From IMG/VR virus record IMGVR_UViG_3300046171_000042, positions 1-31,318 of that record: 31,318 nt of DNA; one strand, written 5' to 3'. The notes under the pieces are model-generated. The model searched no databases. It saw only the letters and a list, made by a program, of their open reading frames with translations, and was not told the DNA's origin. The translations under genes and the position numbers were made by a program. The stretch comes from a virus. How positions within the stretch are numbered: the stretch's first letter is position 1; each line of letters opens with the position of its first letter. Shown here piece after piece: positions 1 to 31,318 of the stretch.

Positions 1-8
1 AAAGCCAT
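1..8 (-). CDS. 5' end of HK97 gp10-like gene (continues at 31318)
   Basis: Reading the minus strand, ATG occupies positions 8-6, GCT 5-3, and the next codon is completed by base 31318. The frame then runs without a stop into the gene at 31318-30844. The ATG overlaps the stop of the upstream connector gene (TAA at 10-8) as TAATG, the same coupling seen at many other junctions here. This small piece only makes sense if the window is circular. Confidence 0.85.
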
Positions 9-493
9 TATCTAGTCAATCTTCTAAATCCATGTAAAGGTTCTCTCTCGTTAGATACAATAGTTCCAGAAGAATCTACATCATATTCTACACCATCTTC
101 TAATATCATTCTCCATTCGATATTGTATTGGCTCATGTAATATTCTTGCATTCTTTCAAATCTATCTTTTTCTGTTTCTGGTCTAAATTTAGTTAATGCT
201 GGTAAATAGAATCTTCCAAGAAATAGATAAACACCAGCCCGTTCAAACTGATCTAAATTAACTTTTGTATTAACCATCTCAGCAGTATTAAGAACTGTAA
301 TATCTGTAAATATATTTGTTTTATATACAGGCCACCATTCTATTCTTAACTGTCTGAAAATATCATTAGTAGTTTGTGCTAGAAAATTAGTTGTTTCTGT
401 AGCAGTTGTAGATATACCAAAATCAAACGCATCAGGTTGATATTTTAAAACATCTGATGTGGTAATAACATCTGCACCTGTATAATTAGCCAT
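8..493 (-). CDS. Head-tail connector/adaptor protein
   Basis: A 161-residue protein downstream of capsid and just before a gp10-like protein, tail terminator and tail tube. That position is normally held by the head-tail connector (HK97 gp6/gp15 role), which sits on the portal ring and joins head to tail. The sequence is mixed helical with aromatic clusters (RIEWWPVYK, FLGRFYLPALTKF) and has no signal peptide or membrane segment. A GGAAG ribosome binding site lies about 8 bases before the ATG. Its TAA overlaps the next ATG across the window join. The function rests on gene order more than on a recognised motif. Confidence 0.6.
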   Translation of the reverse strand: MANYTGADVITTSDVLKYQPDAFDFGISTTATETTNFLAQTTNDIFRQLRIEWWPVYKTNIFTDITVLNTAEMVNTKVNLDQFERAGVYLFLGRFYLPALTKFRPETEKDRFERMQEYYMSQYNIEWRMILEDGVEYDVDSSGTIVSNEREPLHGFRRLTR

Positions 494-496
494 AAT

Positions 497-586
497 TTAC
501 TTCCAAATTAAATAAGCAATTATTAAGACTAGAGGAATAGAATACATTGGGTTATTAATGCTTTTCTCCAAACCCATTTTGACCAT
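497..586 (-). CDS. 29-residue single-pass membrane peptide
   Basis: A tiny open frame fills the gap between two structural genes. After MVKMGLEKSINNP comes a hydrophobic stretch, MYSIPLVLIIAYLIWK, long enough to cross a membrane once. The ribosome binding site is weak (GGAAA placed too far upstream), so it may depend on coupling to the gene ending at 590. No function can be assigned. It could be chance, but the composition is unlike random AT-rich DNA and tiny membrane peptides are frequent in this genome. Confidence 0.4.
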   Translation of the reverse strand: MVKMGLEKSINNPMYSIPLVLIIAYLIWK

Positions 587-589
587 TTT

Positions 590-832
590 CTAGTTTGTTT
601 CCAAATCCACTTGTTCATCTTTTTTCTTCCTTGTTTTTCGTTTCTTTTTTAAAGGTACTACATTTTCTGTAACAACCTCTTTAACTTCTTTTACAACATC
701 TTGTTCTAGTTTAAAACCTCTAAAATCATACATACCTTTATTAGTTTGATAATCTAATTCACTTCTAGTAATTGTTTTGTTACCTCTTTTAAGAGTAACC
801 ATCTTCTCATTTGATAATACTAATTTAACCAT
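590..832 (-). CDS. Hypothetical protein with basic tail, capsid-adjacent
   Basis: An 80-residue protein directly downstream of the capsid gene, started by AGGAG six bases before the ATG. The first two thirds look like a small beta-rich domain (MVKLVLSNEKMVTLKRGNKT). The C-terminal part is highly charged with a lysine/arginine block (LKKKRKTRKKK) followed by an acidic end. Position suggests a head accessory or head-completion role, and the basic block could touch DNA. This is inference; I do not recognise the family. Confidence 0.6.
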   Translation of the reverse strand: MVKLVLSNEKMVTLKRGNKTITRSELDYQTNKGMYDFRGFKLEQDVVKEVKEVVTENVVPLKKKRKTRKKKDEQVDLETN

Positions 833-890
833 TTTATTCTCCTATGTTAGTTGCGAGGGCAGTTTCCCACCCTCACAAAGTATCCAATTA

Positions 891-2453
891 TTATTGGATT
901 GATGAATCGAAATGTAACTCAACACCATATGAATCATGGATTTCTCCAACACCATATACTGAAGTAGCAACAATCTCGTCTGCTCTAAGAGAAGCATCTC
1001 TTTGAGTTTCGATTTTAACATCTTCCATCATAGCGATTGCAAGTGCATCTCTGTGGAACGCACCACCTTTGTAATCTCCAGCATTACCTGTATTAGCAAT
1101 GTTTGAAGTTTCAAAGACAGGCATACCAGCTAATCTACCAACAAAACCTGATCTTAATGCTTCGTTTGATAAGTCATTTGCATTTGCGTTTGCAAAAGTA
1201 TTAGTCAAACCAGCTTTTAAGTCATAAGCGATTTTAGGGTGTAGAACAACTGCACAATCGTCAATGTTAAGAGCATTTTCTCTTAAAGTTGAAAGTGCTT
1301 GGAAGATTGAAGCAGATGAAATAGCACCTGTACCATCTCCTAATGCACTTGAAAAGCCATCAAACAATGCAGTTAAATCTGCGTCTTGTTTTCTTGCTAG
1401 TGCTTCTCCAAACAATTTACCAATATCTCCAGCAACATTTCTTGGTGCTGAATTTCTTGCTAAGTCTGTTAGAGTAGTCATAACACCAACCTCTGATGCA
1501 GTAATAGTTACTGAACTAGGGTTGATTGCTGTGTTAGATAAGTCAGTTGCTTCTGCTACTGCTGATGCTGATACATTTGCATAAACAGGAACTTCAACTG
1601 CTTTTCCACCACCTGTGATCGCATAGTTTTTAACTAAGTTTCTCATGATGGATTTTTCAGAAGCTACGAATTGTGCTTCTGCTACTATCTCTGTGTATAG
1701 TTCCGATAGCGTAGAACTTGTGCTTTCGTTTGCCATTTTATTACCTATTAAGTTTATTTTGTTTAAATTAATCTCAACAGCACCTGAATCTCGTTTCTTC
1801 CTATATTCTGCATAGGCTTTACGATCTTCTGGCTTTGTTAAGTCCAAGTCCTGTAGGTTAAAAGGTTTAACAGTTTTACCACCAATAGCACTCTGGCTTC
1901 CTGAACCAGACAACGACCCTTGACGGAAATGTGGGTTGCTATCTAAGAACTCCTTAACTCGATCTTCAATTGTAAGTAGTTCTCCTTGTGCGTTATATCG
2001 TACATTAGAATTATTATCAACTACTTCTATTCTACCATCATCATTGTACTTAACTTCGTTTTTTAACAAAGCTACAACTTGTTGTGCATTGATAGATTTT
2101 TCTTTGTTAGCAATAGAAAGTATTGAATTATCTACTTTTTCTTTTTTGATTTGATCTTTAACTTTTGCAAGTTCTTGTTCTTTTTCAGATAATCTTTCTT
2201 GCATAATCTTTTCAAGATCAGATTTAGTTTTTGCTTCTTTTAACTGTTCTTGTTTTAAGATTTCTTGTTTTTGCTTTTCTTCTTCTTGAAGTTTTTTCTC
2301 ATACTTATTTTTTTCTGCTTCAAGTCTTGTTTTGATTATGTTGTCTAATTGTTCTTGGGTAAAAGTATTTTGTTTTGTTTCTTCTACTTTTACTTCTTCT
2401 TTTGGTGTTTCAGTTGCAACTTCTGGTGCAACATTTGTTTGTTCTTCGGACAT
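891..2453 (-). CDS. Scaffold-major capsid protein in one frame
   Basis: A 520-residue frame with two parts. Residues 1-239 begin with a disordered acidic segment, then a long charged coiled coil (about 45-130) and a linker, as in DUF4355-like phage scaffolds. Residues 240-520 read as an HK97-fold major capsid protein starting MANESTSSTLSELYTEIV, with the capsid-type end VATSVYGVGEIHDSYGVELH. TAGGAGA precedes the outer ATG. In most related phages these are two genes. Here no stop separates them, and the second part has its own ATG and a possible ribosome binding site at 1734-1747. The product may be a processed polyprotein, or capsid may be made separately from the inner start. Confidence 0.85.
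   Translation of the reverse strand: MSEEQTNVAPEVATETPKEEVKVEETKQNTFTQEQLDNIIKTRLEAEKNKYEKKLQEEEKQKQEILKQEQLKEAKTKSDLEKIMQERLSEKEQELAKVKDQIKKEKVDNSILSIANKEKSINAQQVVALLKNEVKYNDDGRIEVVDNNSNVRYNAQGELLTIEDRVKEFLDSNPHFRQGSLSGSGSQSAIGGKTVKPFNLQDLDLTKPEDRKAYAEYRKKRDSGAVEINLNKINLIGNKMANESTSSTLSELYTEIVAEAQFVASEKSIMRNLVKNYAITGGGKAVEVPVYANVSASAVAEATDLSNTAINPSSVTITASEVGVMTTLTDLARNSAPRNVAGDIGKLFGEALARKQDADLTALFDGFSSALGDGTGAISSASIFQALSTLRENALNIDDCAVVLHPKIAYDLKAGLTNTFANANANDLSNEALRSGFVGRLAGMPVFETSNIANTGNAGDYKGGAFHRDALAIAMMEDVKIETQRDASLRADEIVATSVYGVGEIHDSYGVELHFDSSIQ
1734..1747 (-). promoter_or_regulatory. Internal start and ribosome binding site for capsid part
   Basis: On the minus strand TAGGT (1747-1743) lies seven bases before an in-frame ATG (1736-1734) at residue 240 of the scaffold-capsid frame. 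Translation from here would give a 281-residue capsid protein, the usual size for this fold, at high level independent of the scaffold. The site is weaker than the outer TAGGAGA. Confidence 0.5.
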
Positions 2454-2466: not shown

Positions 2467-3458
2467 TTATATTATTAGTTCGCCTTTGCTGTCATACCAA
2501 TCAGGATTGACATAAGACCATTGATGACGACAATTATAACCACCTCGAACAATTAAAGGGTTTCCAGATTTTTTACCTTTCCAACTTCTACTTGTCCAAA
2601 GTGCATTGACTTCATCAACTGTGAAAAGTCCACTTTTCCTCTTGTTATATACTCCATTAATTATATTTCTGCAATGATCTCTAGTGGTAGGTATTACATC
2701 TCCATAATATTTAACAAAAGTTAAACCAGCGTCTTGAGATTTATTAAAGTTTAAGGTTGCATCAAAATCTCTTAGTGAATCATTAAGTATTTGACCAGCA
2801 TATCTTTTCATATTTTCTCCAGCCCTATCTCTAGCAAATTTAGATTGTAATGTTTGAACAGACTTATCAACTTCTGCTTGTTTAGACTTATCAGAATTTA
2901 TTTCTATTTATATAAGTAATCAATCTAGTTATTTCTGGGTCATCTGCACTTGCATAAATACCATTGATTGTTTGTCTTAGTTCTTTTTCTAATACTGCAA
3001 ACTCGCTACCAACTAATGTGTTTTGATAAACCTTTTCTGATAGTCGTCTTGTAAATGTATTAGATACATCTTTAAACTGAGTAAAGTATTGTTGCTTTAA
3101 ATTTTGTACTAATGCTAGATCGCCTTTAGTTAATTCTTGAAACTCTGGTGGTATATTACCAATTAACTTAAATGCTTTTTCAATTCGTTTAGCTTGTTTA
3201 TTAAAACCCTCTCTAACAACTGTATCTGACCATTTAAGATATTCTCTTTCAAGAATAGCTTTTATCTGTGGTCTTATTGCTATAGCTGATTGTAGTTCAA
3301 TTAACTTACCATCTGTTAAAGGTAATCTACTAGCAAGAGATACTACTTCTCGTTCTATTCTATCTAATGTTGCAATTAATGTTTTATAATATTCAGCTTC
3401 AGCTAAGTTCTATTTGCTTGATTCGATATAATGTTGCTTTTTTAACTTTATCTGCCAT
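2467..3458 (-). CDS. MuF/SPP1 gp7-type minor head protein, broken by two frameshifts
   Basis: Minor head protein that attaches to the portal and enters the head with DNA. The C-terminal 114 residues (2811-2467) carry the signature of the MuF domain: TRDHCRNIINGVY, LWTSRSWKGKKSGNPLIVRG and GGYNCRHQWSYV. The upstream part starts MADKVKKATLYRIKQ at 3458 and continues through LASRLPLTDGKLIEL and FTRRLSEKVYQNTLVGSEF in a second frame. One extra base near 3405-3412 and one near 2893-2906 break the gene. Removing both gives 329 residues, a normal length. The span of 992 bases (3n+2) fits exactly two single-base insertions. Located between portal and capsid as expected. Start is uncertain because no good ribosome binding site is seen. 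Confidence 0.75.
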
Positions 3459-3563: not shown

Positions 3564-3812
3564 ATGAACAAACAAAAAATCAAAACTAAATACGAAAAAA
3601 CTTGGGATGCACATAATGTTCAAGTAATTTTGAATGGTGTTAAATTTCCAAAAGAAAGAGGCGAATGGTATAGACCATCTGCTGAAACTGAAAGTGATGC
3701 AAAAGCTAAAGCTACTGAATGGGCTATTGCAGAATCTAATGGTAAATATCTTTCTTCTGGTGGAATGATTTACAATTCAAAAAAAGAATTTTTAGATTTA
3801 ATAAATAATTAA
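3564..3812 (+). CDS. Moron-like 82-residue protein of unknown function
   Basis: A plus-strand gene between minus-strand portal and minor head genes. It has its own promoter (3512-3540), an AAGGAGAG ribosome binding site before the ATG, and an intrinsic terminator (3832-3856). The product is soluble, with no signal peptide or membrane segment. It shows an N-terminal beta-type segment (WDAHNVQVILNGVKFPKERG), a Trp-rich middle (GEWYRPSAETESDAKAKATEWAIAE) and a C-terminal glycine turn followed by a helix. I do not recognise a family. Independent transcription unit, opposite strand and insertion between conserved head genes are the classic moron arrangement. Such genes usually affect host defence, superinfection or host physiology, but nothing here shows which. 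Confidence 0.85.
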   Translation: MNKQKIKTKYEKTWDAHNVQVILNGVKFPKERGEWYRPSAETESDAKAKATEWAIAESNGKYLSSGGMIYNSKKEFLDLINN

Positions 3813-3831
3813 TTAATAAACTAATGAAAGA

Positions 3832-3856
3832 GGCGATCTTTATGGTCGCCTTTTTT
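3832..3856 (+). terminator. Intrinsic terminator of moron cassette
   Basis: GGCGATC (3832-3838) pairs with GGTCGCC (3844-3850), seven pairs including one G-U, over a five-base loop, followed directly by six T. The reverse strand has no T run after the stem, so it acts only on the plus-strand gene and should not stop late transcription. Confidence 0.85.
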
Positions 3857-5268
3857 ATATCTGCTCTTGCTCTACTTCTTGATCTTCTTGTGCTGGTTCG
3901 TCTTGTGTGAACTGACCTACTTCTGCTTGCTTGGTCTATCTCATCAAATATTTCATTTAGTTTATTATCATCATCAACAACTGCTCTAGCTATTTCTTTA
4001 TCAACTTCTTTAGCAAAAGTTGGAGAGCCAATGTTTAATGCTTTAGCTTGTTGGAAGTACATAAGATCACTTGCGTAATCTCTAATGTTAAATGAATCTG
4101 GATAATTAATTTCTCCATCAAATGTAGCATCTTGGAATAAAGCATATAGTCTAAATAGTTGTTCTTCTGCTATTTGTAAGTTGTCAGCTTTCTCAGATAG
4201 TCTAGCATTTAATAATTCAAATTCTGTTTGTAGTGCAACACCAGATGTTATTCCTGTCTTTTGAGTTCTAACAGCACCCGTATGTGCAATTCTGTTTATA
4301 GAATTTACTTTGCTGTTTATAGACTCCATAATAGCTTGTAAGTTTTGGCCAGATGGTTGAAGTAAATATGGTTTTAAGTTTGGCTCAAGTTCATCAGGCA
4401 TTTCTATTACTGCACCAGCACCAGCACTAGCATTTACACTTGGAGTTTTAACTAATGATGGGTGGTTAGTTAATCTGATTAATTGTTCCATTTCAGAGTA
4501 TTCGTTGTAAATAGATTTTTGTAGATCAGCAATATCAGTTAAATCTGATTGACCTATTCCTCTTTTGTGTGATTTAGCATTGTATAAAATAACTGCTGGT
4601 ATTTTACCAATCATGTTTGGAACACTATCTATCAATCTAGGCTCTGATCTTTCTTCCATGTAAATAGTATCTATTCGATCTGGATACCAAATTCTCATGT
4701 AAGTTCCACCATTTCTATCTACTTCTTCTCTAACTTTTAAATAGTTTAATTCATACTTACCATTAACTTGTCTTTCAAAGTTCCAATCTAAAACATTCTC
4801 AGGAGTAACGATTGATAAGTATGGTCTAATATCTTGATCTAATTCTTCGGCTCTAGTGTTTGTAGTTACATTAGGTTTATCTAACATTAAAAAACAATGA
4901 CCATAAATAGACGCATAGTTTTGAGCCTGTTTAATTACAGAGTTTAAATTGTTACCCTCAAGGTCAGCATCTTTTAAGAATGATTCTAAACTAGGTTCAT
5001 CTTGCATAGAACCAAAATCTCTACTTGGTCTAACTCTAAAAAGGAATGATGAATAAATTTGAATAATATTTTTACAATGGTTATCGCATGGAGTGTTAGC
5101 TAGTCTTTGATTGAACTCGTTATCTAATTCTAAATTATATCTGTTTAGGTATTGGCCTATCATGTAATCATAGCCACCATTGTATGATCTAATATAATAC
5201 TCCCAATTATTAATTGTTTCGGAGTAGTCTTTGTGGGTGTCTAATGCTTGATCTCTAGTGTATGCCAT
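3855..5268 (-). CDS. Portal protein, with a frameshift near the C-terminus
   Basis: The portal forms the dodecameric ring at the head vertex through which the terminase pumps DNA. The frame starts MAYTRDQALDTHKDYSETI, continues with IIQIYSSFLFRVRP, a core containing GIGQSDLTDIADLQKSIYNEY (first 20 residues of this typical portal wing region) and TGAVRTQKTGITSGVALQ, and lies directly after the large terminase (4-base gap). The longest open frame runs on to 3736 through an Arg/Ser-rich stretch. The credible end is in another frame: QAEVGQFTQDEPAQEDQEVE and a stop at 3857-3855. One extra base at 3924-3934 explains this; the span 1414 is 3n+1. About 470 residues when corrected. Confidence 0.85.
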
Positions 5269-5271: not shown

Positions 5272-6507
5272 TTACTTCATTGTCCATCTTGTAGGAGAAT
5301 TAAATCTTGCCTGAGTAGTTAATGGTTTTAAATAATCAATCATATAGCCCAAAGCATCATTCATATGATCGAATCCATCTTCCTTATCAGGAATATTTGT
5401 ATTCTCTTTGTATATTTGCCTTTGTAACCCTTTTATCAGCGTTTTGCAAGAATGTGAAACAAAAATGTGTCTTTCGCCATTAGAATCTTTGAGCCTACTA
5501 TTCACAGCATTGACTCTATCTCGTATAGCTGGGTGTTTATGTTTAACCTTAACTTTAAATCCAGCGTTTTGTAAAATAGATAAATCAGTTCTCCCACCAG
5601 CAGATGTTTTTCTTTGTTTAGATGCTGGGTCAGGATATATAAATATTTGCATTTTAGTTCCGTAACGATCTCTAAGTTCTTGCACCATTTCATCAGTATT
5701 ACTTCCATAAATGATAACCTCATCTACAAAATAAACTTTATCTTTTTCTATTTGCCCAACACAGGCTGACATAGGGTCAACATTAAAGTCCATTCCAATA
5801 TGTAAAGGTTTCTCCCAATCTATCTGTCGTTTAACAACATTATCTACAGGGTGGAAGTTATAATAAACACTACCAGCATAGTTCTCAAATGTACCCTCAA
5901 ACTCTTGTCTAAAAGTTCTAATATCAATATCTTGTTTAGCTTGTTCTATTTCCTCAGCAGATACCATACCACCTTGAATAGTTGTATATTGAAAAGACTC
6001 CCAATCGTTATCTTGCTTACCTTTTAAATATAATTCATAAGACCAATTACCATATCCCTTTGGAGTTCCACAAAATAGTACATGGCCTAATCTGTCAGAT
6101 ATACTAGCTCTCAAGACCTCATACCAAGTTCGCTTATCTATATCTGCAAACTCATCTAAGATTAAAAAGTCTAATCCTGTACCTCTAAGTGAATCATAAT
6201 TATCAGCACCCTTTAGTGAGATTGTACTATTCGATTGTCTTATCGTAATAGTCATTGTTGTTTCGTTTATATCCTCAATCCAATTAAACTGATTAAGCAT
6301 TTCTTTGAGTGTTCCCCAGACGATCTCTTTAGCCATTTTAAATGTAGGTGCTACATACCAAATTCTTCTATTTGGCTGACACGCATATTTCATCATCTCA
6401 GTTACAGCTAAATAAGTTTTACCAAATCTACGACCTGATATTAAAACTCTAAACCTTGATTTACTTGATGATACTTTAAGTTGTGGTTTTGTCAGAGTTA
6501 TTTTCAT
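5272..6507 (-). CDS. terL: Terminase large subunit
   Basis: ATP-driven motor and nuclease that cuts and packages DNA into the head through the portal. With the start at 6507 (MKITLTKPQLK, 411 residues) I see Walker A SGRRFGKT at 24-31, Walker B LDFLILDEF with D118-E119, and a coupling motif near CGTPKG (146-151). The RNase H-like nuclease acidic residues are D240 (HIGMDFNVDP), D293 (YPDPASKQ) and D384 (GFDHMNDALGY). A longer start at 6555 exists, but it adds 16 unlike residues and overlaps the upstream gene more. Followed by the portal and preceded, after several microproteins, by the small subunit. Confidence 0.95.
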   Translation of the reverse strand: MKITLTKPQLKVSSSKSRFRVLISGRRFGKTYLAVTEMMKYACQPNRRIWYVAPTFKMAKEIVWGTLKEMLNQFNWIEDINETTMTITIRQSNSTISLKGADNYDSLRGTGLDFLILDEFADIDKRTWYEVLRASISDRLGHVLFCGTPKGYGNWSYELYLKGKQDNDWESFQYTTIQGGMVSAEEIEQAKQDIDIRTFRQEFEGTFENYAGSVYYNFHPVDNVVKRQIDWEKPLHIGMDFNVDPMSACVGQIEKDKVYFVDEVIIYGSNTDEMVQELRDRYGTKMQIFIYPDPASKQRKTSAGGRTDLSILQNAGFKVKVKHKHPAIRDRVNAVNSRLKDSNGERHIFVSHSCKTLIKGLQRQIYKENTNIPDKEDGFDHMNDALGYMIDYLKPLTTQARFNSPTRWTMK

Positions 6508-7914: not shown

Positions 7915-8124
7915 CTATCTCTTAAAATACCTTTTTCTCCATTCGTGGCAAACATAAGTATCTTTAACTCCCTTAGCACCCCACCTACCACAGAATGATC
8001 TTTTGTTAGAGTATAATCCACAATCTCCACATGAAGCACCCTTTAATGCTTTAGTAAATGATTGTGGTAGAGAATAATCTATGATCTCTCCACTAGGATA
8101 AAAGTTACTTCGTTTCTGTTCCAT
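7915..8124 (-). CDS. Four-cysteine putative zinc-binding small protein
   Basis: A 69-residue protein with Cys spaced as CGDCGLYSNKRSFCGRWG followed by YVCHEW, consistent with one zinc site. The ends are basic. The start overlaps the coiled-coil gene ending at 8105. Similar four-Cys microproteins occur in phages, but I cannot name this one. Confidence 0.6.
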   Translation of the reverse strand: MEQKRSNFYPSGEIIDYSLPQSFTKALKGASCGDCGLYSNKRSFCGRWGAKGVKDTYVCHEWRKRYFKR

Positions 8125-8284
8125 TCTCTACTAACTTTCTTAAATCTTTTGCTATTGCTAATGCTTTGTTTAATTTTCGTAAAGCAATATCTCTTTGAAT
8201 CTTTACTTGCTCTAACTCAGATTTTAACTGTGATTTTTCTTCTCTTAATTTTAAAAATGTATTCTCTCCGATTAGTTCACTCAT
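8105..8284 (-). CDS. Small coiled-coil protein
   Basis: I place the start at 8284 (MSELIGENTFLKLREEKSQL) because AAGGAAG lies about seven bases upstream and it follows the preceding gene by one base. That gives 59 residues, almost entirely a coiled coil (LKSELEQVKIQRDIALRKLN). The longer frame to 8368 only reads the preceding gene out of frame. Unknown function. Confidence 0.6.
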   Translation of the reverse strand: MSELIGENTFLKLREEKSQLKSELEQVKIQRDIALRKLNKALAIAKDLRKLVENGTETK

Positions 8285-8285: not shown

Positions 8286-8423
8286 TTATCTTCCTTGTCC
8301 TTTATATCGTTTTTGTTTTTGTTGTCGTTTTTCTTGTTTGTTTTTATTTTTCTTATGTTTTCCAGCACCTCGTTTTGGTGGTTTATCTCTTGGTATGAAG
8401 TGCGTGAATTTTTGTTTAGCCAT
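8286..8423 (-). CDS. Lys/Arg-rich marine-phage microprotein
   Basis: A 45-residue protein: MAKQKFTHFIPRDKPPKRGA, then GKHKKNKNKQEKRQQKQK and the end RYKGQGR. From memory, the pattern F.PR.KP.KR.G.HKKN.NK...Y.GQG recurs as an uncharacterised microprotein in marine podo- and siphophages. The extreme positive charge suggests DNA, RNA or capsid interaction. It overlaps the end of the small terminase gene by eight bases. Confidence 0.65.
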   Translation of the reverse strand: MAKQKFTHFIPRDKPPKRGAGKHKKNKNKQEKRQQKQKRYKGQGR

Positions 8424-8787
8424 CTACATCTTCTGCTTTAGCATCTATAACCAATGGTAAAGGCTCGTTAATGTTTTCAGTTTGAGTTCTATCTTTCATT
8501 CCTAGATAGTTTTTACTTAACCAAATCTGCATATGGGTATTATCTTTTTTAACTGCCTTATCCCACATCTTCTTTCTTAAACTAGCTTTACCTTTTTCTT
8601 TAAACTGTTCTATAATATCTGCATAATTTCTTTTGAGTGTTTTAGCTGATATATTTAACACACTTGCTATTTCATAGTCAGGACAGCCAATAGAGGCTAA
8701 ATTCTTTAGGATTTCTATATCGACCACTATTCTAGGTCTTCCAGCACCCTGTCTTTTTTCTGTCTTATTTGCCTTAATTTTGTCCAT
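8416..8787 (-). CDS. Terminase small subunit (helix-turn-helix)
   Basis: A 123-residue protein. After a basic N-terminus with GAGRPRIVVD it has a helix-turn-helix (IEILKNLASIGCPDYEIASV then LNISAKTLKRNY), a helical middle (KGKASLRKKMWDKAVKKDN) and WLSKNYLGMKD, the usual shape of small terminase subunits that recognise the packaging site. The IWLSKNYLGMKD end is shared with many phage small terminases. It overlaps the methyltransferase gene by 14 bases and lies upstream of terL, with the microprotein block in between. Confidence 0.8.
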   Translation of the reverse strand: MDKIKANKTEKRQGAGRPRIVVDIEILKNLASIGCPDYEIASVLNISAKTLKRNYADIIEQFKEKGKASLRKKMWDKAVKKDNTHMQIWLSKNYLGMKDRTQTENINEPLPLVIDAKAEDVDG

Positions 8788-9919
8788 TTTCTAACTCTGC
8801 CTTTTTCCCTGTAAAGTTTTCCCATCTTTTAATAATAACATCACAATATTTAGGGTCTAATTCCATACCATAACATATTCTATCCATTTTTTCACAAGCA
8901 ATTATAGTGCTACCAGAACCTAAAAATCCATCATAAACAGTTTTTTTATCTTTTTGATCTTCTAGTGCCATAGTAATTAATTCAACAGGCTTCATAGTGG
9001 GATGTAATGTATTTTTTTTTCTTTTAAGATTCCAGACATCTCCTCTTAATGTTTTTTGACCACCAAAATCTCCATAATAATAAATAATTTCATGTTGTTT
9101 AAAATATTTATCTAAATGTTGTGCTGGATTAACTTTATCCCATATAATCATCGCTTTAGGTTTTCTAGCTATTTTAATCATAGCTTCTCTGAATAAATGA
9201 GCATACTGCCAACTACAACAAACATACATAGTTTCACAACCCAATAAAGAAGAAGTTAAAAAATCTACAAAAGACTCATCGTCCATTTTATCGTTTTTAA
9301 TTTTTCTTTTATCTTTAACTCCTTGATAATCTATGTTGTAGGGTGGGTCAGTAAAAACCATATCTATTTTTTCTTTCTTAGTAAGTAAATCTATATTATC
9401 AATAAAAGTGCAATCTCCACACATAACTCTATGATTACCAAGTTTCCAAATATTTCCTAATTTAGTTATAGGTTCTTCAGGTGCTTCAGGCACTTCATCT
9501 TCATCAGTTAAACCTTGTTTTTCCTCAAATAACATATCGTTTAGCTGATCTTCATTAAAACCTAATAAATCTAATTTAAAGTCTTTAGCTTCTAGTTCTT
9601 TTATTTCCATTTTAAGTAATTCGCTATCCCACTCAGATTCTTCAGCAGTTCTATTATCAGCAATTCTATATGCGTTTATCTGTTCAGGTGTAAGATTATC
9701 AGCAATAGTTATTGGTACTTCTTTTAGGCCCAATTTTTTAGATGCTCGGTATCTAGTATGGCCCACAACAATAATTCTATCTTTATCAACTACTATAGGC
9801 TGTCTAAAACCATATTCTTTTAAAGACATAGCAACCTTTTCTATAGCTGAGTCTTTTAATTTTCTCGGATTGTTCTCATAAGGTTTTATAGTGTTTATAT
9901 CGGCTGTTTCTATTTTCAT
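8774..9919 (-). CDS. ParB-domain / DNA methyltransferase fusion
   Basis: A 381-residue protein. Residues 1-115 match the ParB/Srx-type nuclease fold (IKPYENNPRKL, GHTRYRASKKLG at 53-64). Residues 165-375 are a DNA amino-methyltransferase of beta order: DPPY at 191-194, then HPTMKPVEL at 306-314, then the SAM-binding FLGSGST at 332-338. DPPY indicates N6-adenine (or N4-cytosine) methylation. Such fusions are frequent in phages of Alphaproteobacteria and may protect phage DNA or mimic host methylation; the target site is not visible. A strong AGAGGATAAT site precedes the ATG. No cognate restriction gene is present. Confidence 0.93.
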   Translation of the reverse strand: MKIETADINTIKPYENNPRKLKDSAIEKVAMSLKEYGFRQPIVVDKDRIIVVGHTRYRASKKLGLKEVPITIADNLTPEQINAYRIADNRTAEESEWDSELLKMEIKELEAKDFKLDLLGFNEDQLNDMLFEEKQGLTDEDEVPEAPEEPITKLGNIWKLGNHRVMCGDCTFIDNIDLLTKKEKIDMVFTDPPYNIDYQGVKDKRKIKNDKMDDESFVDFLTSSLLGCETMYVCCSWQYAHLFREAMIKIARKPKAMIIWDKVNPAQHLDKYFKQHEIIYYYGDFGGQKTLRGDVWNLKRKKNTLHPTMKPVELITMALEDQKDKKTVYDGFLGSGSTIIACEKMDRICYGMELDPKYCDVIIKRWENFTGKKAELENGQN

Positions 9920-10229: not shown

Positions 10230-10363
10230 TAATGTTTTTTAGAATTATCACTTTCCACAATCGCTTTGTAAAATTCAAGTTGCATCTTTAACCTTTTATT
10301 TTCAATAGACAGATTAATCAATCTTTTTCTGACATATTTGAATATTCTTAATATCGCACTCAT
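10229..10363 (-). CDS. 44-residue helical protein
   Basis: Reads MSAILRIFKYVRKRLINLSI followed by ENKRLKMQLEFYKAIVES, a basic amphipathic helix leading into a short coiled coil. It is stitched to both neighbours by stop/start overlaps (ATGA at 10363-10360 and TAATG at 10231-10227), good evidence that it is translated. Confidence 0.6.
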   Translation of the reverse strand: MSAILRIFKYVRKRLINLSIENKRLKMQLEFYKAIVESDNSKKH

Positions 10364-18414: not shown

Positions 18415-18897
18415 TTAGTTAGTTAGTTTTCCACCTGACCATTTTGCTTCAGGTAATCCATTAGTATATGATTTGCCATCAAATGTTAATACTTGTTTTC
18501 TATTTGAGCCATCTGAATATGATACATGAACCCACCCTGATGATGGTTCTCCTGTGTAGTATTCTAAAATTAATTGGTCAAAATCGCAGTTATTAGAAAT
18601 GTAAATTGCGATAGCGAGATTAGATACACCAGCTATTTCAAAATCTACTGCTTGTCCTTTTGCGTGTTGTGATGTTTTTTTACTTCCTATTGCTTCGCAT
18701 AGTTCCTCTGATCTAAAACCAGATGTAATTGTAACAGGCTTATCATCAAATTTAGTACGAACTTTCTCTAATATCTCATAACAAATATCGCCTAAGTTTT
18801 TAATCTCTCCAGCACCAGCTTTATTTTTAATACCAAGCCTAATAGCAGTAGAACTTTTTTCCATCTCCTCAAGGCTAAAATTTTTAGAAAGTTTCAT
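18415..18897 (-). CDS. M15-family peptidase (endolysin-type)
   Basis: A 160-residue zinc peptidase that would cut peptidoglycan cross-links. Motifs: TSGFRSEEL near 58-66, SQHAKGQAVDFE with zinc ligands H78 and D85, and GWVHVSY with H124. This is the M15 (D-Ala-D-Ala/L,D) carboxypeptidase pattern. No signal peptide, so export would need a holin. It follows the tail fibre genes and may be the endolysin or a virion-associated lysin. AGGTAATT precedes the ATG. Confidence 0.88.
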   Translation of the reverse strand: MKLSKNFSLEEMEKSSTAIRLGIKNKAGAGEIKNLGDICYEILEKVRTKFDDKPVTITSGFRSEELCEAIGSKKTSQHAKGQAVDFEIAGVSNLAIAIYISNNCDFDQLILEYYTGEPSSGWVHVSYSDGSNRKQVLTFDGKSYTNGLPEAKWSGGKLTN

Positions 18898-22897: not shown

Positions 22898-25771
22898 TTA
22901 AAAGCCTTTTGCAATAAAATCAAATGTTTTTGATATTGCTGTATTACTTGAATTTTTAAATGTTACATCAAATCCATTAATAGTTTTATTTTCTACAAGA
23001 AAGAAATCTCCTGTGGCCATTCCTTGTCCTGTAATTCCAATTGCATAATTAACAGTTTTATATGGATTTGTAAATGTTACAGTTTTAGTTCCAGCACCAG
23101 AAACTATATCGTTTCCACTAAATATTCTATCAGGCATATCAATCGTTACTGTTACTGCTGAAACTCTAGGTGTAGAAGCACCATCTCTTGAAATTAAAAC
23201 AACTCTAAATTTAAAGTATCTTGCTGTGTAATCTCCAATTACAAAGTTTTGGAAAGCTGTATAAGTTACATTATCATCACTTGTTGCAACTTCTATATGA
23301 GCATTTGCATTAGCTGGTGTATCTCCATCAAAGTTAGAAGAAGCAGAATCAAAATTACCTGATCTGTTATCAAATAAGTCGTCTGGGTTATCTGATGTTT
23401 GCGTTAATGATGCTGTAATTCTAGCTGTGTGTTTAGCACCTATATCAATTACATCTGCGAATAGATAATTACCACTTGCAAAGAAGTCAGCATTAGCAAC
23501 ACCAGAATCAAAAAATCTAGTTGTTTCAGAATCAAAGTTCCCTGACGCACTATCAAATAATTCAGAAGAATCTAATTCAATAGCATCATCTGTGATTACA
23601 GTATTAGTTAAAGTTCCATCAAAATCTGGGTGTTCTGATTGTGTTGAAATAGTATTAAAATTAGCAACTCCTGTTACATTAGAAATAATTGCTGTAGCAT
23701 TTGAACTAAAGTTTCCTAGCTTATCAACAGCTTTTAAAAGATAAGTTCCAGCCCTAGCTGGTACAGATATTGAAGTTGCTGGTCTTGATACTTTTTCTAC
23801 TAATGCTACTGAGTTTTGCCAATCAGCAGTTCCATCAGTTTCTTCACTAAATCTTAAATTATAATATGCTAAATCAAGATCTGGTATTTGTGTCCATGAT
23901 AAGTGAGCCTCTTGACCTACAATATTACAAGCAAAATCTTCTACATCACTAGGTGGTTCAATAGCACCAACGATTGTTCTTTGTGCAGATACATAAGTTG
24001 ACGAAACACCTAAACTATTTACAGCTTTAACTCTTACATCATAAGTAGATTGGTCAATTACATTTAAAACTCTGTGGTTTAATCCTGAGCCTTGTGCATA
24101 AATAATAAAATCTGAATCTGTACTTTTTTTGTACTCTACTTGGTAATAATCAATAAAGCTATCGGGAGAAGCACCTATTGATACATCTAAAGCTACAATT
24201 ACAGTTCCATCATTATATTCAATTAATGTATCATCTAAACTAACACTTGCTGGTGGCTGGATTGTAAATGGATTAGGTAAATTAGTTGATGGTGTTGCTG
24301 TCGCTTGTGTTTTTGTAGCCCAAGTATAATGACTATCTTGGTGTTCAACTAAAGATAAACCAACAGTAAAATCTTCATTAAAAGTTATTCCAAGAACTCT
24401 AAAAGGTTTAGCAGAGAATCCTAAAGAAGAATGTGTAATATTAACTATATCTCCTATGGCTAAATCATAAGCATCTAAACTAACTGTAATTCCTAAAGAT
24501 AATGCTTCTCTACTTCTTCTAAGTATTACTTCTGCCATTTCTTCTGCTTGATATTGGCTTGTAATTGTACTGAATGAAAATCTACCCTCTAATAAGAATC
24601 CACCATCAGCAGTTTTCATTGTTGCGTGTTGATCTGCACTTGGTAATCCTGAATCGTCAATAGGTGGCCATTGAATTTCATTAACTTGATAATTTCTATC
24701 TGGGTCAACAAAGCCAACTATAACTCTATTATATTTTTCGTTTTTATCAGGAGTTGTTAAACTATATCCACCTATAATATCATCTTCTGTTAATGTGATA
24801 CTTGCTGTTCCTGTTGTTTCAATAACTAAACTATATTTACCAGCACTATATGGAAGATAGCCTCTGCAACCTTTTATAATTTCTCTAACATTAGTTAAGA
24901 TATTTTTTGAGGTATCTAATGCAGTATTTGTGTCAAAAATATTTATATCACTACCACCTGAATATGGGGTTACTTGTGTTGTACAAACAACTGAGGCATC
25001 ATAAAAACTTTGTAAATCTATTTCGCTTGTTGTTAAACCTTTTCCATATCTAGTATTAGTTAAGTAATCTAATAAACACCATGCTGGATTTGTTGAATAT
25101 GCTGGAGTTTGAGCAACTAAACTTGAATTATAAGATACAACTTTTTTACCTTGTATCTTTGCTTGTATTTTTGGAAGTCCAGCAAATGCGTCTGAGTTCC
25201 ATTTTAATCTAATTGCTAAATAACAAAGACCAGATAATTTATGATTACTTCCCCATGATGATAATGTAGATAATAAAGATGATGCTGATTGACCATCAGT
25301 TCCATAATGAGGCTCTACTCTAATTAAACTTTCACTATCTTTATAAAAATTAGCATCTCCACTATCAACTTCAACTGCTGTACCATCTGAAAAACTAGAT
25401 GCAAATGTTACAACTTTATCATCTACTCTTATTTCTTCTATATCGTTAATCTCTCCCTCTGCCATAACGATAGCCATGTATAAGTAAGTATTATCTGTAC
25501 CAGAAGTTTCCATAAATACTCTAGTTCCCCCTGTAAGTCTTTCTCCATAAATTACAGGAATATTTGCGTCATTAGATTGTTTATTAACTAATAATCCTCT
25601 TTCAAAATCATCAAATTGATTAGTTCCAAAATCTTCCATTTCAGGAACTTTTGGTCTTAATATCCAAGATAAAAATAGACTAATACCTAAAGCAACAAAA
25701 GGATTAATTGGTATTTTTAAAATTTTAACTACAGGAGAGAAAACTTTTCCTACAACATCTTTCCAACCCAT
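22898..25771 (-). CDS. J-like tail tip attachment (host specificity) protein
   Basis: A 957-residue protein, the largest intact gene. A hydrophobic segment (NPFVALGISLFLSWIL, 23-38) is followed by NANIPVIYGERLTGGTRVF-like sequence (IPVIYGERLTGG), a J-type baseplate region (GKGLTTSEIDLQSFYDASVV, YNRVIVGFVDPDRNYQVNEI, ISLGITVSLDAYDLAIGDI), and fibronectin type III-like domains about 510-700 (YYQVEYKKS, YDVRVKAVNSLGVSSTY, YNLRFSEE). A repeat region carries LFDSASGNFDSETTRFFDSG and LFDNRSGNFDSASSNFDGD. A C-terminal beta domain ends the protein. Forms the tail tip that contacts the receptor. Confidence 0.85.
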   Translation of the reverse strand: MGWKDVVGKVFSPVVKILKIPINPFVALGISLFLSWILRPKVPEMEDFGTNQFDDFERGLLVNKQSNDANIPVIYGERLTGGTRVFMETSGTDNTYLYMAIVMAEGEINDIEEIRVDDKVVTFASSFSDGTAVEVDSGDANFYKDSESLIRVEPHYGTDGQSASSLLSTLSSWGSNHKLSGLCYLAIRLKWNSDAFAGLPKIQAKIQGKKVVSYNSSLVAQTPAYSTNPAWCLLDYLTNTRYGKGLTTSEIDLQSFYDASVVCTTQVTPYSGGSDINIFDTNTALDTSKNILTNVREIIKGCRGYLPYSAGKYSLVIETTGTASITLTEDDIIGGYSLTTPDKNEKYNRVIVGFVDPDRNYQVNEIQWPPIDDSGLPSADQHATMKTADGGFLLEGRFSFSTITSQYQAEEMAEVILRRSREALSLGITVSLDAYDLAIGDIVNITHSSLGFSAKPFRVLGITFNEDFTVGLSLVEHQDSHYTWATKTQATATPSTNLPNPFTIQPPASVSLDDTLIEYNDGTVIVALDVSIGASPDSFIDYYQVEYKKSTDSDFIIYAQGSGLNHRVLNVIDQSTYDVRVKAVNSLGVSSTYVSAQRTIVGAIEPPSDVEDFACNIVGQEAHLSWTQIPDLDLAYYNLRFSEETDGTADWQNSVALVEKVSRPATSISVPARAGTYLLKAVDKLGNFSSNATAIISNVTGVANFNTISTQSEHPDFDGTLTNTVITDDAIELDSSELFDSASGNFDSETTRFFDSGVANADFFASGNYLFADVIDIGAKHTARITASLTQTSDNPDDLFDNRSGNFDSASSNFDGDTPANANAHIEVATSDDNVTYTAFQNFVIGDYTARYFKFRVVLISRDGASTPRVSAVTVTIDMPDRIFSGNDIVSGAGTKTVTFTNPYKTVNYAIGITGQGMATGDFFLVENKTINGFDVTFKNSSNTAISKTFDFIAKGF

Positions 25772-26521: not shown

Positions 26522-27135
26522 TTAGAGTGCTTCTTCTACATCAAATTCAAATTGATATAAAGCATTACCATCTTTATCTGCACCAGCTACACCAAACTCT
26601 TGAACATCATTTGTTAAGTGAACTGTAAATGGAACATTATCAAAAGTTATATTTGATGAAGAAACTGCTGTAGTTAAAGGTGGCTCAATAGTTAGAGTTC
26701 CTGTTGAAATATCTGAACATCTGCTACAATCATATATACTTTATCATGACTAGCAAATTTTATAAAATCTCCTGACTTAAATGCGTGTGGATTATCATTG
26801 TGGTGTCCGTCCATAGCAATCGTTGTATCTCCTACTGCGTGAACACCATTAACTCTTACTGTATTTGTTTCATTACCTCTAGCATCTTCTACTTCTGGTG
26901 GGATTATAGTAAAGTTTTCTTTGCCTGATCTTTGTTTAACTATAAAGGCCATTAACTCTCCATAAACATCTGATCTAGTTGCTGTAACAATACGAACAGT
27001 AAAAGCCCATCTTTGATTGTCTATTTGTCTAGCAAGTTTCTTACCAGATACAGTTTTTGAGATAATAGTATTTTGAATAGACTTTATTCCTAAAGATTCA
27101 AACTTAGCAGTAGATATTGGAAAAGCACCTGACAT
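26522..27135 (-). CDS. Tail protein after tape measure, with one frameshift
   Basis: Starts MSGAFPISTAKFESLGIKSI in a TAATG overlap with the tape measure. It has SKTVSGKKLARQIDNQRWAF, ELMAFIVKQRSGKENFTIIP and NPHAFKSGDFIKFA. The uninterrupted frame stops at 26692, but the sequence continues convincingly in another frame (SDISTGTLTIEPPLTTAVSS, FTVHLTNDVQEFGV, YQFEFDVEEAL) to 26522. A base missing at 26714-26724 (probably from GATTGT, giving ADCSD) restores a 204-residue protein; the span 614 is 3n+2. Its position is that of a distal tail protein. Confidence 0.7.
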
Positions 27136-29099
27136 TAGATTAAGTTTTTACTCCCTCTTTCATTAACTGCATTATTAATTAATTGTGTAATAGTTCCTCT
27201 TGATCTTACAAGTAATTCTTCAAAGCCAGAAGCATCTACTGTATTGATATTAAAATTAACTGTTGTAGCACCACCCCCTGTGCCTCTTGCTGATTGTGTA
27301 ATTTGTCCTGTTGAGTTCGGTACAAACATTTCTGGCCCATTTTCTCCAACTACAATTGGTTGTCCTTTTGATACTGCACCACCTTTAGCCATACCAAAGG
27401 CTTTACTAAAAGAACCAAAAAATGAAGCACCTTGTAAAGCTATTTGTTTTCTTTTCTCATTTGTAATCATTTTTTCTATAGCTAATTCTACACCTTTTCT
27501 TGCAACAACTTCAATTAATGAACTTATTATATTTGCTAAAACATTTTGTGCCATACTTCTTAATGTATCTGATAATTTTTCTCCAAAAACAAATGCTCTT
27601 GCAAGACCCTCTGACATTTTTGTAATACCACTATTAATACCCTCTTTAATAGTAGTTGATACATTTGTAAATTTCTTTTCAAGATTTTTTAAAGCAGTTT
27701 CATTCATTTCTTGGAATGTTTCTTCTGTTTTTTTACTTGCATTAGCCATTTCAAACATATGATGATTAGACATAGATGTAAATTTAACTATTTCTTTTTG
27801 TTCTTCTTTTATTTTTTGAACATTATTTGCCATTTCAAACATATGATGATTTGATTCTGATAAAACACCATTTTTAATTTTTTCAAATTTAATAAAATCC
27901 TCAAGTTCTGATTTTTGTTTTCTTAAAGTTTTTAATTGATCTTCACTTAATTTATTATAATTTTCTACAATTATTGTTCCTTTATTTCTTACATCTATAA
28001 ATTCTAATTCTTTTTTTAACCCATCTTCTAATTGTTTATTAATTTCTGCTAATCTTATTTTTGCTTCTTCAATATTGGCAACATCAATTAAACCACTTCC
28101 AATTCTTTCTTTTTTTAATAAATCACTAACTTTATCAATTACAAAACTTATTCCAGCTAATCCTACTGCACCTTTTTTACCCAATAAAAATGCTCCAATT
28201 ATCCCAACTTCCCTTGCAAATTCTGGCATAGCCATAAATCCATCAAAAATACTTTTTAAACCTGAACCTATTTTATTTATTGTAGGAATTAAATCTTTAC
28301 CTACTTGAACTACTCTTACCATTCCTTGTGCTAGGTTTTTGCCAACTGATGTTGCAATTCTATCTATATCTTTTGCATTATCTTCCAAAAATTTATCTAA
28401 ATCTCCAAATTGTTTTTTTAGTTCTTCAAAAAATCCAGCTTCTAATAATACCTTTTTAAAATTAAATACTTTATCTCCTATCATTGATAAAGTACCCTCA
28501 AATGTTTGTGCTAATTCATCTGTTGCTTTACCAAATCTTCCACCCTTACCAAATACTTTTTCAAAGGCTTGTACTGTTTCTTCAATAGATACAGTTGCAC
28601 CAGCTTTAAACCCAAGCATATTTCTAACACCTTTTTCTCTAAATATATCTGCTGAACCTATACCAGCACTAAATGATCTTTGTATTTGTTCTCCAGCAGT
28701 TCTAAAATCTAATCCTGTAACTGATGCAACATTCCCTGTTATCTCTAACATTTTTTGTAAGTCATCAGCATTGTCTGTAACTGTTGCAAGAATACCAGCA
28801 CCAGCCTGTATTTCCTCAAGTGAAAAAGGAACTTTAGATGCAAATTTCGACATATTGTCAAATGCCTTTTGCACCCTCGTTTGTATCTTTAAGTAAGAAC
28901 TTTAATCTAGTTCTTAAATTCTCTAATTGCTTTCCTGTATTAACTAAATTTCTAACAACAAGCCCAGCACCTAAACCTAAAAAGCATTTCTTAAATTAAA
29001 TACAGAATTTTTTAATCTTCCTAAAGATTTTTGGACACCATTTAAAGCCTGTTTAGACTTATCTCGTGCTACAATATCTATATTGAGTTTTTGTGTCAT
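27135..29099 (-). CDS. Tail tape measure protein, broken by two compensating indels
   Basis: Sets tail length and leaves the tail at infection. The start at 29099 (MTQKLNIDIVARDKSKQALN) is coupled to the chaperone stop. One base is missing from a run of five T (28979-28983) and one G is extra at 28864-28868; corrected, the protein has 654 residues. Known features: N-terminal helical region with FASKVPFSLEEIQAGAGILA, hydrophobic middle (VGIIGAFLLGKKGAVGLAGI), long coiled coil, then the tape measure end motif VVGENGPEMFVPN. The stretch NHHMFEMAN occurs twice. The span 1965 is a multiple of three, as expected for one gain and one loss. Confidence 0.85.
27745..27851. repeat. Pair of 23-base direct repeats in tape measure gene
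   Basis: The same 23 bases stand at 27745-27767 and 27829-27851, 84 bases (28 codons) apart, and encode NHHMFEMAN twice. The spacing is in frame, so gain or loss of a unit would change tail length by 28 residues of helix. Confidence 0.75.
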
Positions 29100-29628
29100 T
29101 ATTTAAACTTCCTTGCTTCTGCTAGTGATTGATTTGTTTTATACTGTTCTTGCTCTTTTTTCAAGTAAGCTAACCAAAGATTATAATGGCTAACAGGCAT
29201 ATCAAGAACTTGTTGGATTGTGATGTGTAATCTATCTGCTAATATTAAAAGCGACCTAACATCAGGGTCGCTATCTACTTTTTTTCAGCGTCCTCGTAAT
29301 GAGTATCTAAAAGGATTTTATTGGCAACATCAGATATAATATTTGAATCTGCTTTTTTTCTAAGTGCAAATTTATCTTCTGGGCTAAAGGCTTTAATCAT
29401 TTCGCCTTTATCATTCTTAACTAATAACTTCATTATAAGCAAATCAACAAGAACAGTTAAGTCTTGAAAATTACTAGACTTCTTAAAGATAATGTTTTTT
29501 TCTTCAAGGGTTAATGGCTCTGAATAGAATACACTAGCGTTACCATGCTCGTCTTTCCACTCCTCAACTTCAATAGTGATAGTTTTAAGAGTTTCAAAAT
29601 GAGATTTAACTCTATCAATAACTGACAT
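29099..29628 (-). CDS. Tail assembly chaperone long form (GT-type, by -1 frameshift)
   Basis: The frame starting at 29628 reads 117 codons to AAA-AAG before TAG. A -1 slip on A AAA AAG continues as VDSDPDVRSLLILADRLHIT, QQVLDMPVSHYNLWLAYLKK and QSLAEARKFK to a stop at 29101-29099, a 176-residue fusion. No ribosome binding site or ATG suits the second part on its own. Location directly before tape measure is where lambda-type G/GT chaperones lie. The long form binds the tape measure and recruits tail tube protein. Confidence 0.85.
29250..29284 (-). promoter_or_regulatory. Programmed -1 ribosomal frameshift signal
   Basis: Slippery heptamer A AAA AAG at 29284-29278, in frame as GAA AAA AAG, with the zero-frame stop TAG next. 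After a spacer of 5-6 bases comes a hairpin, AGCGACC (29272-29266) with GGTCGCT (29256-29250), seven pairs and a nine-base loop. Heptamer, spacer and stem have the canonical arrangement. The stem followed by TTTT might also act as a weak terminator. Confidence 0.85.
29275..29628 (-). CDS. Tail assembly chaperone short form (G-type)
   Basis: The 117-residue zero-frame product: MSVIDRVKSHFETLKTITIE, EWKDEHGNASVFYSEPLTLE, ALRKKADSNIISDVANKILL. Its small beta part, then helical part with a ..LEE...I...S, is typical of tail assembly chaperones that bind the tape measure. The TAG stop lies just beyond the slippery site, so most ribosomes would make this form and a minority the 176-residue fusion. 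Confidence 0.85.
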   Translation of the reverse strand: MSVIDRVKSHFETLKTITIEVEEWKDEHGNASVFYSEPLTLEEKNIIFKKSSNFQDLTVLVDLLIMKLLVKNDKGEMIKAFSPEDKFALRKKADSNIISDVANKILLDTHYEDAEKK

Positions 29629-29637
29629 AAATTAGGA

Positions 29638-30024
29638 TTATACAGTACCTATAGTTAAAGCACCTGTTCCTTGAAAAGTAACAGTTCTTGAAACGATTGC
29701 GTCCATTGAGTTATTAACTGACATTCCTGTAACAATTCCTGTACCAGCAAAACTTCTGTCGCCACTTGCATTACCCTCAGGTAATAAAATAAAAGCGATT
29801 GAAGAACCAGCAGTTAAACTTGTTTGTGGGCTATCTGTTTCGTCAAAGTGCATTTCTAATGTTCCAGAGAATGAAGTTCGACCAGCAACAAATGATTTAG
29901 TAGCATCTGTTAAAGCTGTATCTTCTACAACATCTCCTGTAGTTTCAAGTGTGAATGATGTTAGTTCCCCAACAGCAGTTCCACCAGCAGTAACTACGCC
30001 TTCTTTTCCGTGATGTGTTGCCAT
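29638..30024 (-). CDS. Major tail tube protein
   Basis: A 128-residue, beta-rich protein: MATHHGKEGVVTAGGTAVGE, LTSFTLETTGDVVEDTALTD, FSGTLEMHFDETDSPQTSL, RSFAGTGIVTGMSVNNSMDA and RTVTFQGTGALTIG. The pattern of a tube fold with a TSFTLE...D..EDT.L and a final V.R..TF.G.G is typical of lambda V/HK97-like tail tube subunits that stack as hexamers. It lies between tail terminator genes and the chaperones, as expected. Confidence 0.85.
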   Translation of the reverse strand: MATHHGKEGVVTAGGTAVGELTSFTLETTGDVVEDTALTDATKSFVAGRTSFSGTLEMHFDETDSPQTSLTAGSSIAFILLPEGNASGDRSFAGTGIVTGMSVNNSMDAIVSRTVTFQGTGALTIGTV

Positions 30025-30158
30025 TTTTTGTCCTTGTTTGATTTAGTTTGTTTGTTTTCTTTTTCTTGCTTATAGCCTAAACTTAAAAAATGTTCAAGAT
30101 TAGATTCATTAATAACTATCTCTGAATTACCTTTATATAATTTAATATCTTTAGCCAT
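29994..30158 (-). CDS. 54-residue protein overlapping tail tube gene
   Basis: MAKDIKLYKGNSEIVINESN, then LEHFLSLGYKQEKENKQTKS. KxL....EI.I.ES.L..FL..GY is a short domain pattern seen in small phage tail-region proteins (an LEHFL-type motif), with a lysine-rich end. AAAGGA precedes the ATG. It ends 30 bases inside the tail tube gene in another frame. The C-terminal part beyond the tube ATG may be unimportant. Confidence 0.6.
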   Translation of the reverse strand: MAKDIKLYKGNSEIVINESNLEHFLSLGYKQEKENKQTKSNKDKKWQHITEKKA

Positions 30159-30166
30159 AAGTCCTT

Positions 30167-30400
30167 TTACAGTTTATCGTCTTCTTCGTCAATATCTTCT
30201 TCATCTTCTTCAAAATCTTCTTCAAAGTCATCTGATACATCTTCTTCTTCCCAAGTACCATCTTCATCTTCTAAAGAGTTTTCTCTAATTTCTTCTACTA
30301 AGTCTTTTACTTCCTCGCAAAGCATAGACTCTTTATCGTGTAACTTTTCTATCTGATCTATTTTCTTAGATATTTTATCTAATAGTTTTTCGTTTTTCAT
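30167..30400 (-). CDS. Strongly acidic small protein
   Basis: A 77-residue protein: a coiled-coil N-terminal half (KLLDKISKKIDQIEKLHDKE) and a C-terminal half almost wholly Asp/Glu (SDDFEEDFEEDEEDIDEEDD). GGATAAATT precedes the ATG. Acidic tails of this kind may mimic DNA or act as assembly chaperones for basic tail proteins. This is inference; no family recognised. Confidence 0.65.
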   Translation of the reverse strand: MKNEKLLDKISKKIDQIEKLHDKESMLCEEVKDLVEEIRENSLEDEDGTWEEEDVSDDFEEDFEEDEEDIDEEDDKL

Positions 30401-30408
30401 AATTTATC

Positions 30409-30847
30409 CTATGGTGTTCCAGCTTGATATTCGTACATACACCTAATTGTCATTCTTATTCCACCAACAGGAAATAAAGAACCCTCGTCAGTTTCTACTT
30501 GTATAACTTCTGTATCAAGTGCATTACCATTTCGAGTAATATCAGTTTCTAATGCAGTTTCAATAGCTGTAATTAATTCATTTCTTTTAGTATCTATATT
30601 GGCCTCTGCACCTTTAACAAATCCTAAGTATTACAAAATCAATAGTACCATGCCTAGTTTTAGCACCACTTCCTAATTCAGAGTCATCTCTGTTTTCTTC
30701 TGATGTTTGAACTATTACTGCTGGATATTGTTTATCTGATAATTCGTCTAATAAAAAAGGTTGTCTAGTAGCCTTTATAATATCTGGGCTAGATATAGCA
30801 GATATAACTGACAATAAATTAGATGCTATGTTTTCTCTTACACTCAT
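30409..30847 (-). CDS. Tail terminator/completion protein, with one frameshift
   Basis: Starts MSVRENIASNLLSVISAISS (ATGA overlap with the gp10-like gene) and includes QPFLLDELSDKQYPAVIVQT and RHGTIDFVILR, a tail terminator-like alpha/beta core. The frame stops early at 30614, but GFVKGAEANIDTKRNELITA, ETALETDITRNGN, TEVIQVETDEGSLFPVGGIR and MTIRCMYEYQAGTP follow in another frame to 30409. One extra base at 30622-30634 explains the break; the span 439 is 3n+1. Corrected length is about 145 residues, normal for gpU/gp17-like terminators. Confidence 0.75.
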
Positions 30848-31318
30848 ATTCTTGCTTTCCTAAATTCCTTTGCAACAAATCTGTTAAATTGTTTTCTTAT
30901 TATATTTGCTGTTCTATCATTAAATCCAAAAAATTCCCTCTTATTTTTTCCTAATACTTGATTAAATACTGCTCTTTGCCTCATCTGTGAATTACTAAAA
31001 TTAACAGTAACTTTATTAGTTCCTGTTTTTCTAATAGTTCTACCAGATGGAGTTAATGCACCTAACATTCTACCAGAATAGAATAAATCTACTTTTGTTG
31101 ACTTACCCTCTTTTTGTAATTTTTTTAAATAGCCTGATGAATATGGAACAAAAGGTACATCTCTAAAATCAATACCTTTTTGAGTCTTAGTTCTAATAAT
31201 ATCTAGTAATTGAAATCCAGCTTGTAGTATTCCTTTTTGGATTATACCTTTAAATCTTTTCTCTATTCTCTTAAATCTTTTTTCAACTAATTTAGAATTG
31301 GTTTTGATCTTTAAATCT
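30844..31318 (-). CDS. HK97 gp10-like head-tail protein (5' end at positions 8-1)
   Basis: Within this stretch the frame is open to the window edge and continues through 1-8, giving 160 residues. It starts MALDLKIKTNSKLVEKRFKR, then FQLLDIIRTKTQKGIDFRDV, PFVPYSSGYLKKLQKEGKST, LFYSGRMLGALTP, VNFSNSQMRQRAVFNQVLGK, and ends FFGFNDRTANIIRKQFNRFV. The pattern G..F..PYS..Y...K.....VDLFYSGRML and a late FFGF...... IN...+ helix matches the HK97 gp10/lambda Z-type tail completion family. Placed between connector and tail terminator. Confidence 0.8.
   Translation of the reverse strand, partial: DLKIKTNSKLVEKRFKRIEKRFKGIIQKGILQAGFQLLDIIRTKTQKGIDFRDVPFVPYSSGYLKKLQKEGKSTKVDLFYSGRMLGALTPSGRTIRKTGTNKVTVNFSNSQMRQRAVFNQVLGKNKREFFGFNDRTANIIRKQFNRFVAKEFRKARI

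Follow-up and report, generated by a model that had tools for sequence, protein, structure and literature searches.

The DNA analysed here, referred to throughout as the window, is 31,318 bases long and constitutes the whole of a public IMG/VR record (IMGVR_UViG_3300046171_000042). The record has no sequence past either edge. In addition to the database matches given with individual genes below, family searches name an HK97-fold capsid, a scaffold, a tape measure and a distal tail protein; tRNA genes are absent from the window, as is an integrase from the window proteins searched. The features used in the following account, in order along the window, are:

1–8, minus strand: 5′ end of the neck/virion-morphogenesis gene (ATG at 8–6 plus two codons, the last one split); same start in 105 of 109 related loci.
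8–493, minus strand: putative neck/connector protein, 161 aa; 86% identical to HTVC111P gp38, function assigned by position.
891–2453, minus strand: a 520-aa open reading frame (ORF) covering both scaffold and major capsid protein; the 89 relatives tested all have them as separate genes.
2467–3458, minus strand: minor head protein gene (HTVC111P gp33 homologue) with two frame shifts, seen by comparison with relatives.
3736–5268, minus strand: portal protein (SPP1_portal) with a frame shift near 3925 that affects its C-terminal end; PF05133 E 1.3e-10, phrog_145 E 1.8e-62.
5272–6507, minus strand: terminase large subunit, 411 aa; Terminase_6N/6C, phrog_2, 96% identical to HTVC111P.
8416–8787, minus strand: terminase small subunit candidate; phrog_309 E 4e-8.
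8774–9919, minus strand: ParB-N/DNA methyltransferase fusion; Pfam, phrog_498 E 2.5e-125.
10360–10932, minus strand: DnaD-like helicase loader; phrog_2514 E 2.5e-15.
13501–13935, plus strand: helix-turn-helix regulator of the early (plus-strand) module; HTH_3 E 1.4e-16.
14049–14825, plus strand: exonuclease; phrog_298 E 3e-40, 97% identical to HTVC111P gp04.
15917–15933, no strand: point to which the ends of the HTVC111P record map; window continuous, point also crossed by 55 related loci.
16961–17665, minus strand: metallo-phosphoesterase; Pfam, phrog_221 E 1.4e-52.
18415–18897, minus strand: M15-type peptidase endolysin; phrog_894 E 3.5e-44.
22898–25771, minus strand: central tail protein (J-like); phrog_31 E 1.5e-86.
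26525–27135, minus strand: distal tail protein gene with a frame shift near 26716, seen by comparison with relatives.
27135–29099, minus strand: tape measure protein gene, cut short near 28977 by an in-frame stop that a private single-base slip of the window creates; the sequence is different in 80 of 81 relatives.
29099–29628, minus strand: tail assembly chaperone G, whose stop directly follows the slippery heptamer A-AAA-AAG, with a predicted −1 frame extension (GT), from the sequence and its relatives.
30412–30847, minus strand: HTVC111P gp40 homologue, downstream of the join gene, broken near 30625–30626; all 104 covering relatives differ.
30844–31318, minus strand: remainder of the join-spanning 160-residue neck/virion-morphogenesis (gp10- or Phage_tail_S-like) protein; ORF and fold match.

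The central question is whether the two edges of the window are adjacent in the virus. At the right edge lies an ORF of 157 codons (30844–31317, minus strand) that is still open where the record stops. Joining base 31318 to base 1 adds ATG-GCT-TTA and completes a protein of 160 residues (MALDLKIKT...), whose ATG at positions 8–6 overlaps the TAA of the ORF at 8–493 (minus strand) by a single base to form TAATG. The original prediction had described this frame running through base 1, its length and its overlap with the connector stop, and all three are confirmed when the ends are joined. It had also noted that such stop/start coupling recurs at other junctions, and TAATG is indeed found at seven starts in the window, with the join counted among them. 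The frame is open as predicted, but the 83 codons given for it cover just the stretch upstream of an internal ATG at 31068; the complete open frame has 157 codons.

The protein completed by the join has no significant Pfam or PHROG match, and none is found for the neighbouring neck/connector protein (8–493, minus strand). Distant members of the join protein's family give sub-threshold matches to PF05069 (Phage_tail_S; E 0.0098) and, in one case, to PF04883 (HK97-gp10_like; E 0.038), while neither the join protein nor these distant members score above the curated value of either family. A first structure model was too poor for use (pLDDT 46), and a usable one (pLDDT 73) was built from 37 sequences. 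When compared with BFVD, this second model retrieves phage virion morphogenesis proteins at E 4e-4 to 5e-4; among phage entries of the PDB, the tail completion protein of SaPI1 ranks first (TM 0.65 on target), at a non-significant E of 4.3. The gene lies between those for the connector and the tail terminator. Predicted fold and position together identify the product as a neck/tail-completion protein; its likeness to Phage_tail_S and HK97-gp10_like is one of predicted fold, in the absence of any match above the curated scores of PF05069 and PF04883. The earlier label of a protein like HK97 gp10 is accordingly right in kind, by fold and position, although no significant Pfam or PHROG match accompanies it.

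An open frame that meets a correctly phased start codon had been taken as sufficient to make chance unlikely. We modelled chance with 200,000 false joins, in which the right end was attached to randomly chosen positions of the same genome: 5.5% of them place an in-phase ATG within five codons, and 0.8% generate a TAATG start. By itself the open frame therefore represents a coincidence of 1–5%, which is suggestive and of moderate weight, not decisive; it is the relatives that decide, and with them chance is excluded. The exact 27-base join sequence occurs in 31 other IMG/VR contigs, each of which aligns over the join in one piece. Since a search with these 27 bases requires the join to be present, a second set was assembled independently of it, from contigs fetched by the terminase gene 5–6 kb away. 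Ten of these cross the join, nine with zero gap and one (L136) with an insertion of approximately 134 bases. Across all loci holding both genes, TAATG is found at zero gap in 105 of 109, a count in which some contigs figure twice, having been retrieved in both orientations. This zero-gap TAATG in relatives, together with the terminase-fetched contigs, rules out a chance join. The cultured phages HTVC111P, HTVC112P and HTVC026P each span the join in a single alignment, and HTVC111P has the same TAATG at its neck-gene junction as the window.

A small group of relatives differs at this point. HTVC202P (L034, 16391–17005) and the contigs L136 and L132 carry a variant neck protein with some 45–50 extra N-terminal residues, located exactly at the connector/neck junction. 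The approximately 135 extra bases found where the join gene begins in HTVC202P and a few contigs, which the window does not have, are a natural variant with an extended N-terminus of the neck gene.

These observations bear on the possibility that the window is a linear fragment, broken in the same gene at both sides, with sequence missing between its ends. Such a fragment would account for the lack of an end repeat: the record has no exact suffix–prefix overlap, its first 1,000 bases share no exact match longer than 11 nt with its last 1,000, and neither direct nor inverted terminal repeats are present at the window ends. The search for terminal redundancy, one of the checks proposed at the outset, thus came back negative; the missing repeat is not counted against the join, since trimming of an overlap would leave no repeat behind. 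The extra sequence between the two parts of the gene in HTVC202P, L136 and L132 would likewise suit a fragment. Against this, the parts are joined at zero gap with the same TAATG in those 105 loci and in three isolates, a joined protein of 100% identity is encoded by L037, the closest contig, and the gene content and length of the window are those of complete isolates, four of whose genomes measure 31,577–32,480 bases, a range with which 31,318 is consistent. We regard a broken fragment as exceedingly improbable.

Continuity is not confined to the join. No position on the circle is spanned by fewer than 27 related loci, and the window also runs without interruption through the place where another record ends: bases 16 and 31577 of HTVC111P, whose record is linear, map to window positions 15917 and 15933, placing its ends at approximately 15,925. 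Other relatives close elsewhere, as the end repeats of two of them lie at other positions. In one contig of 30,755 bases (G004), an exact end repeat of 91 bases corresponds to window positions 25083–25173 or thereabouts, and another of 33,619 bases (G001) has a 138-base end repeat of 99% identity near position 943; a third (G006) is cut near 8,086–8,273 and has ends that are diverged but overlapping. A chimera, in which the assembler joined two related phages, has precedents in the family. The 55,775-base record IMGVR_UViG_3300030103_001381 (G008; L277–L279) contains two structural modules of HTVC111P type, with copies of the join protein at 94% and 41%; the gp10-like protein of its second module is a 100% match to that of contig IMGVR_UViG_3300030376_000122, and the record is probably two phage genomes joined by assembly. 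The window, however, has one copy per module in the order of the isolates and no duplicated or conflicting segment, so that a chimera is very unlikely. Relatives that are continuous from 31318 to 1 and all the way round the circle, and the unbroken sequence where the HTVC111P record ends, thus support the claim of a complete genome that closes on itself. From sequence comparison, the window is almost certainly a complete genome map, taken once around, of an uncultivated tailed pelagiphage of HTVC111P type, with bases 31318 and 1 adjacent in the virus. The map would have been cut at an arbitrary point inside the neck gene, and the cut point would carry no meaning. A record that lacks an end repeat, and is ‘linear’ to automatic pipelines, can in this manner be recognized as full length when its join is checked against related sequences.

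The circle is that of a genome map, and circularity of the map is not the same as circular DNA in the virion. Most likely, the virion DNA is linear and circularly permuted, and it would also be terminally redundant. A headful terminase packing from a concatemer would yield an assembly that closes into a circle with a meaningless cut point, and the assembler would have removed the redundant overlap to leave a record without an end repeat. It is possible, though less likely, that the genome is complete and its virion DNA has fixed ends, either cohesive or in the form of a fixed direct terminal repeat, the circle having formed in the cell or during assembly. IMG/VR metagenomes include cell fractions, in which phage DNA is concatemeric, and contig ends pile up mildly at two places (27,001–27,250 and 1–500), as would be compatible with fixed ends. 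This enrichment can be produced by sampling on the gp10 gene (30.8–31.3 kb), which predicts an excess in these places, although a preferred end keeps some probability. Fixed ends are also opposed by the loci that cover every point, by near-complete relatives cut at different points, and by the contig ends themselves, which form no sharp cluster and number at most four within 10 bases of one another. The literature consulted contains nothing on the DNA ends of HTVC111P. Circularly permuted virion DNA is the more probable of the two readings.

The sequence is full length and yet most likely contains single-base errors, a caveat that any use of the word ‘complete’ requires. Alignment with relatives revealed 16 private frame-changing indels in the window; for approximately six of them, dozens of relatives provide strong support. 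Single-base indels break the portal, minor head, tape-measure and distal tail genes and the gp40 homologue, while the annotated homologues in HTVC111P are without frame breaks. The 520-aa scaffold/capsid ORF was most likely fused by a single-base indel in this record only, judging from the alignment; a true scaffold–capsid fusion is rejected, as a stop lies between the two in every one of the 89 relatives. Polished long-read viral assemblies have been reported to retain 22.78 indels per 100 kb (PMC6487183), which amounts to about 7 per 31 kb, compared with about six strong private indels in the window. The record would then stem from long-read sequencing whose assembly retained single-base errors and was circularized and trimmed: assembly errors of this type would explain the broken conserved genes, and trimming of a circularized assembly the absent end repeat. 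The added value of the analysis lies in a closure demonstrated through relatives, coupled with a warning that a full-length sequence may be imperfect. The window provides one more complete map for an abundant group of SAR11 phages, the genes of which should be read with single-base errors in mind.

Closest terminase, portal and capsid, shared gene order and a size of 31–33 kb place the window, on sequence grounds, among the HTVC111P-type phages, a type of unclassified pelagiphages so named in PMC10504331. HTVC111P itself (MN698245.1) is collinear with the window round the circle, with 84% identity over 66% of its length; terminase and portal are each 96% identical and the capsid is 98% identical, whereas several tail-fibre and early genes differ and overall similarity is approximately 55%. 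HTVC202P (MN698248.1) is also collinear, at approximately 57% overall similarity, and has more tail-fibre genes in common with the window. The highest value among the near-complete relatives fetched, approximately 70%, belongs to the already mentioned G006 (IMGVR_UViG_3300023109_000080, 31,381 bases). The usual line for a genus is 70% overall similarity. As none of the four isolates used for comparison exceeds approximately 57% overall similarity, the window appears, on balance, to represent a genus-level lineage of HTVC111P-type pelagiphages that is not yet cultured and is otherwise of standard design. By analogy with the cultured isolates, and with them only, the host is presumably Candidatus Pelagibacter (SAR11). 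A search for proviruses of this kind in host genomes, with one genome per species, gave no SAR11 match; it returned a single 79% terminase match on a 6-kb MAG contig, which is probably misbinned.

Several genes outside the join merit comment. The tail assembly chaperone is predicted to undergo a programmed frameshift of the lambda G/GT type, which is without annotation in GenBank records of HTVC111P-type phages. Its −1 frame is open for 59 codons, up to the TAATG where the tape measure gene starts. All 66 distinct relatives keep this extension open, 56 of them with AAAAAAG; in HTVC202P and HTVC026P the run of A at the slippery site is longer and ends in C. At 8774–9919 (minus strand), a ParB N-terminal domain is fused to an N6/N4 DNA methyltransferase, and near that place HTVC111P has a different methyltransferase gene, annotated as a DNA cytosine methyltransferase. 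HTVC111P also has a copy of a lysine-acyltransferase, of which the window contains no homologue; in some relatives, a gene annotated as a toxin-activating lysine-acyltransferase is located between tail genes (L033, 21239–21646; L036, 21400–21813).
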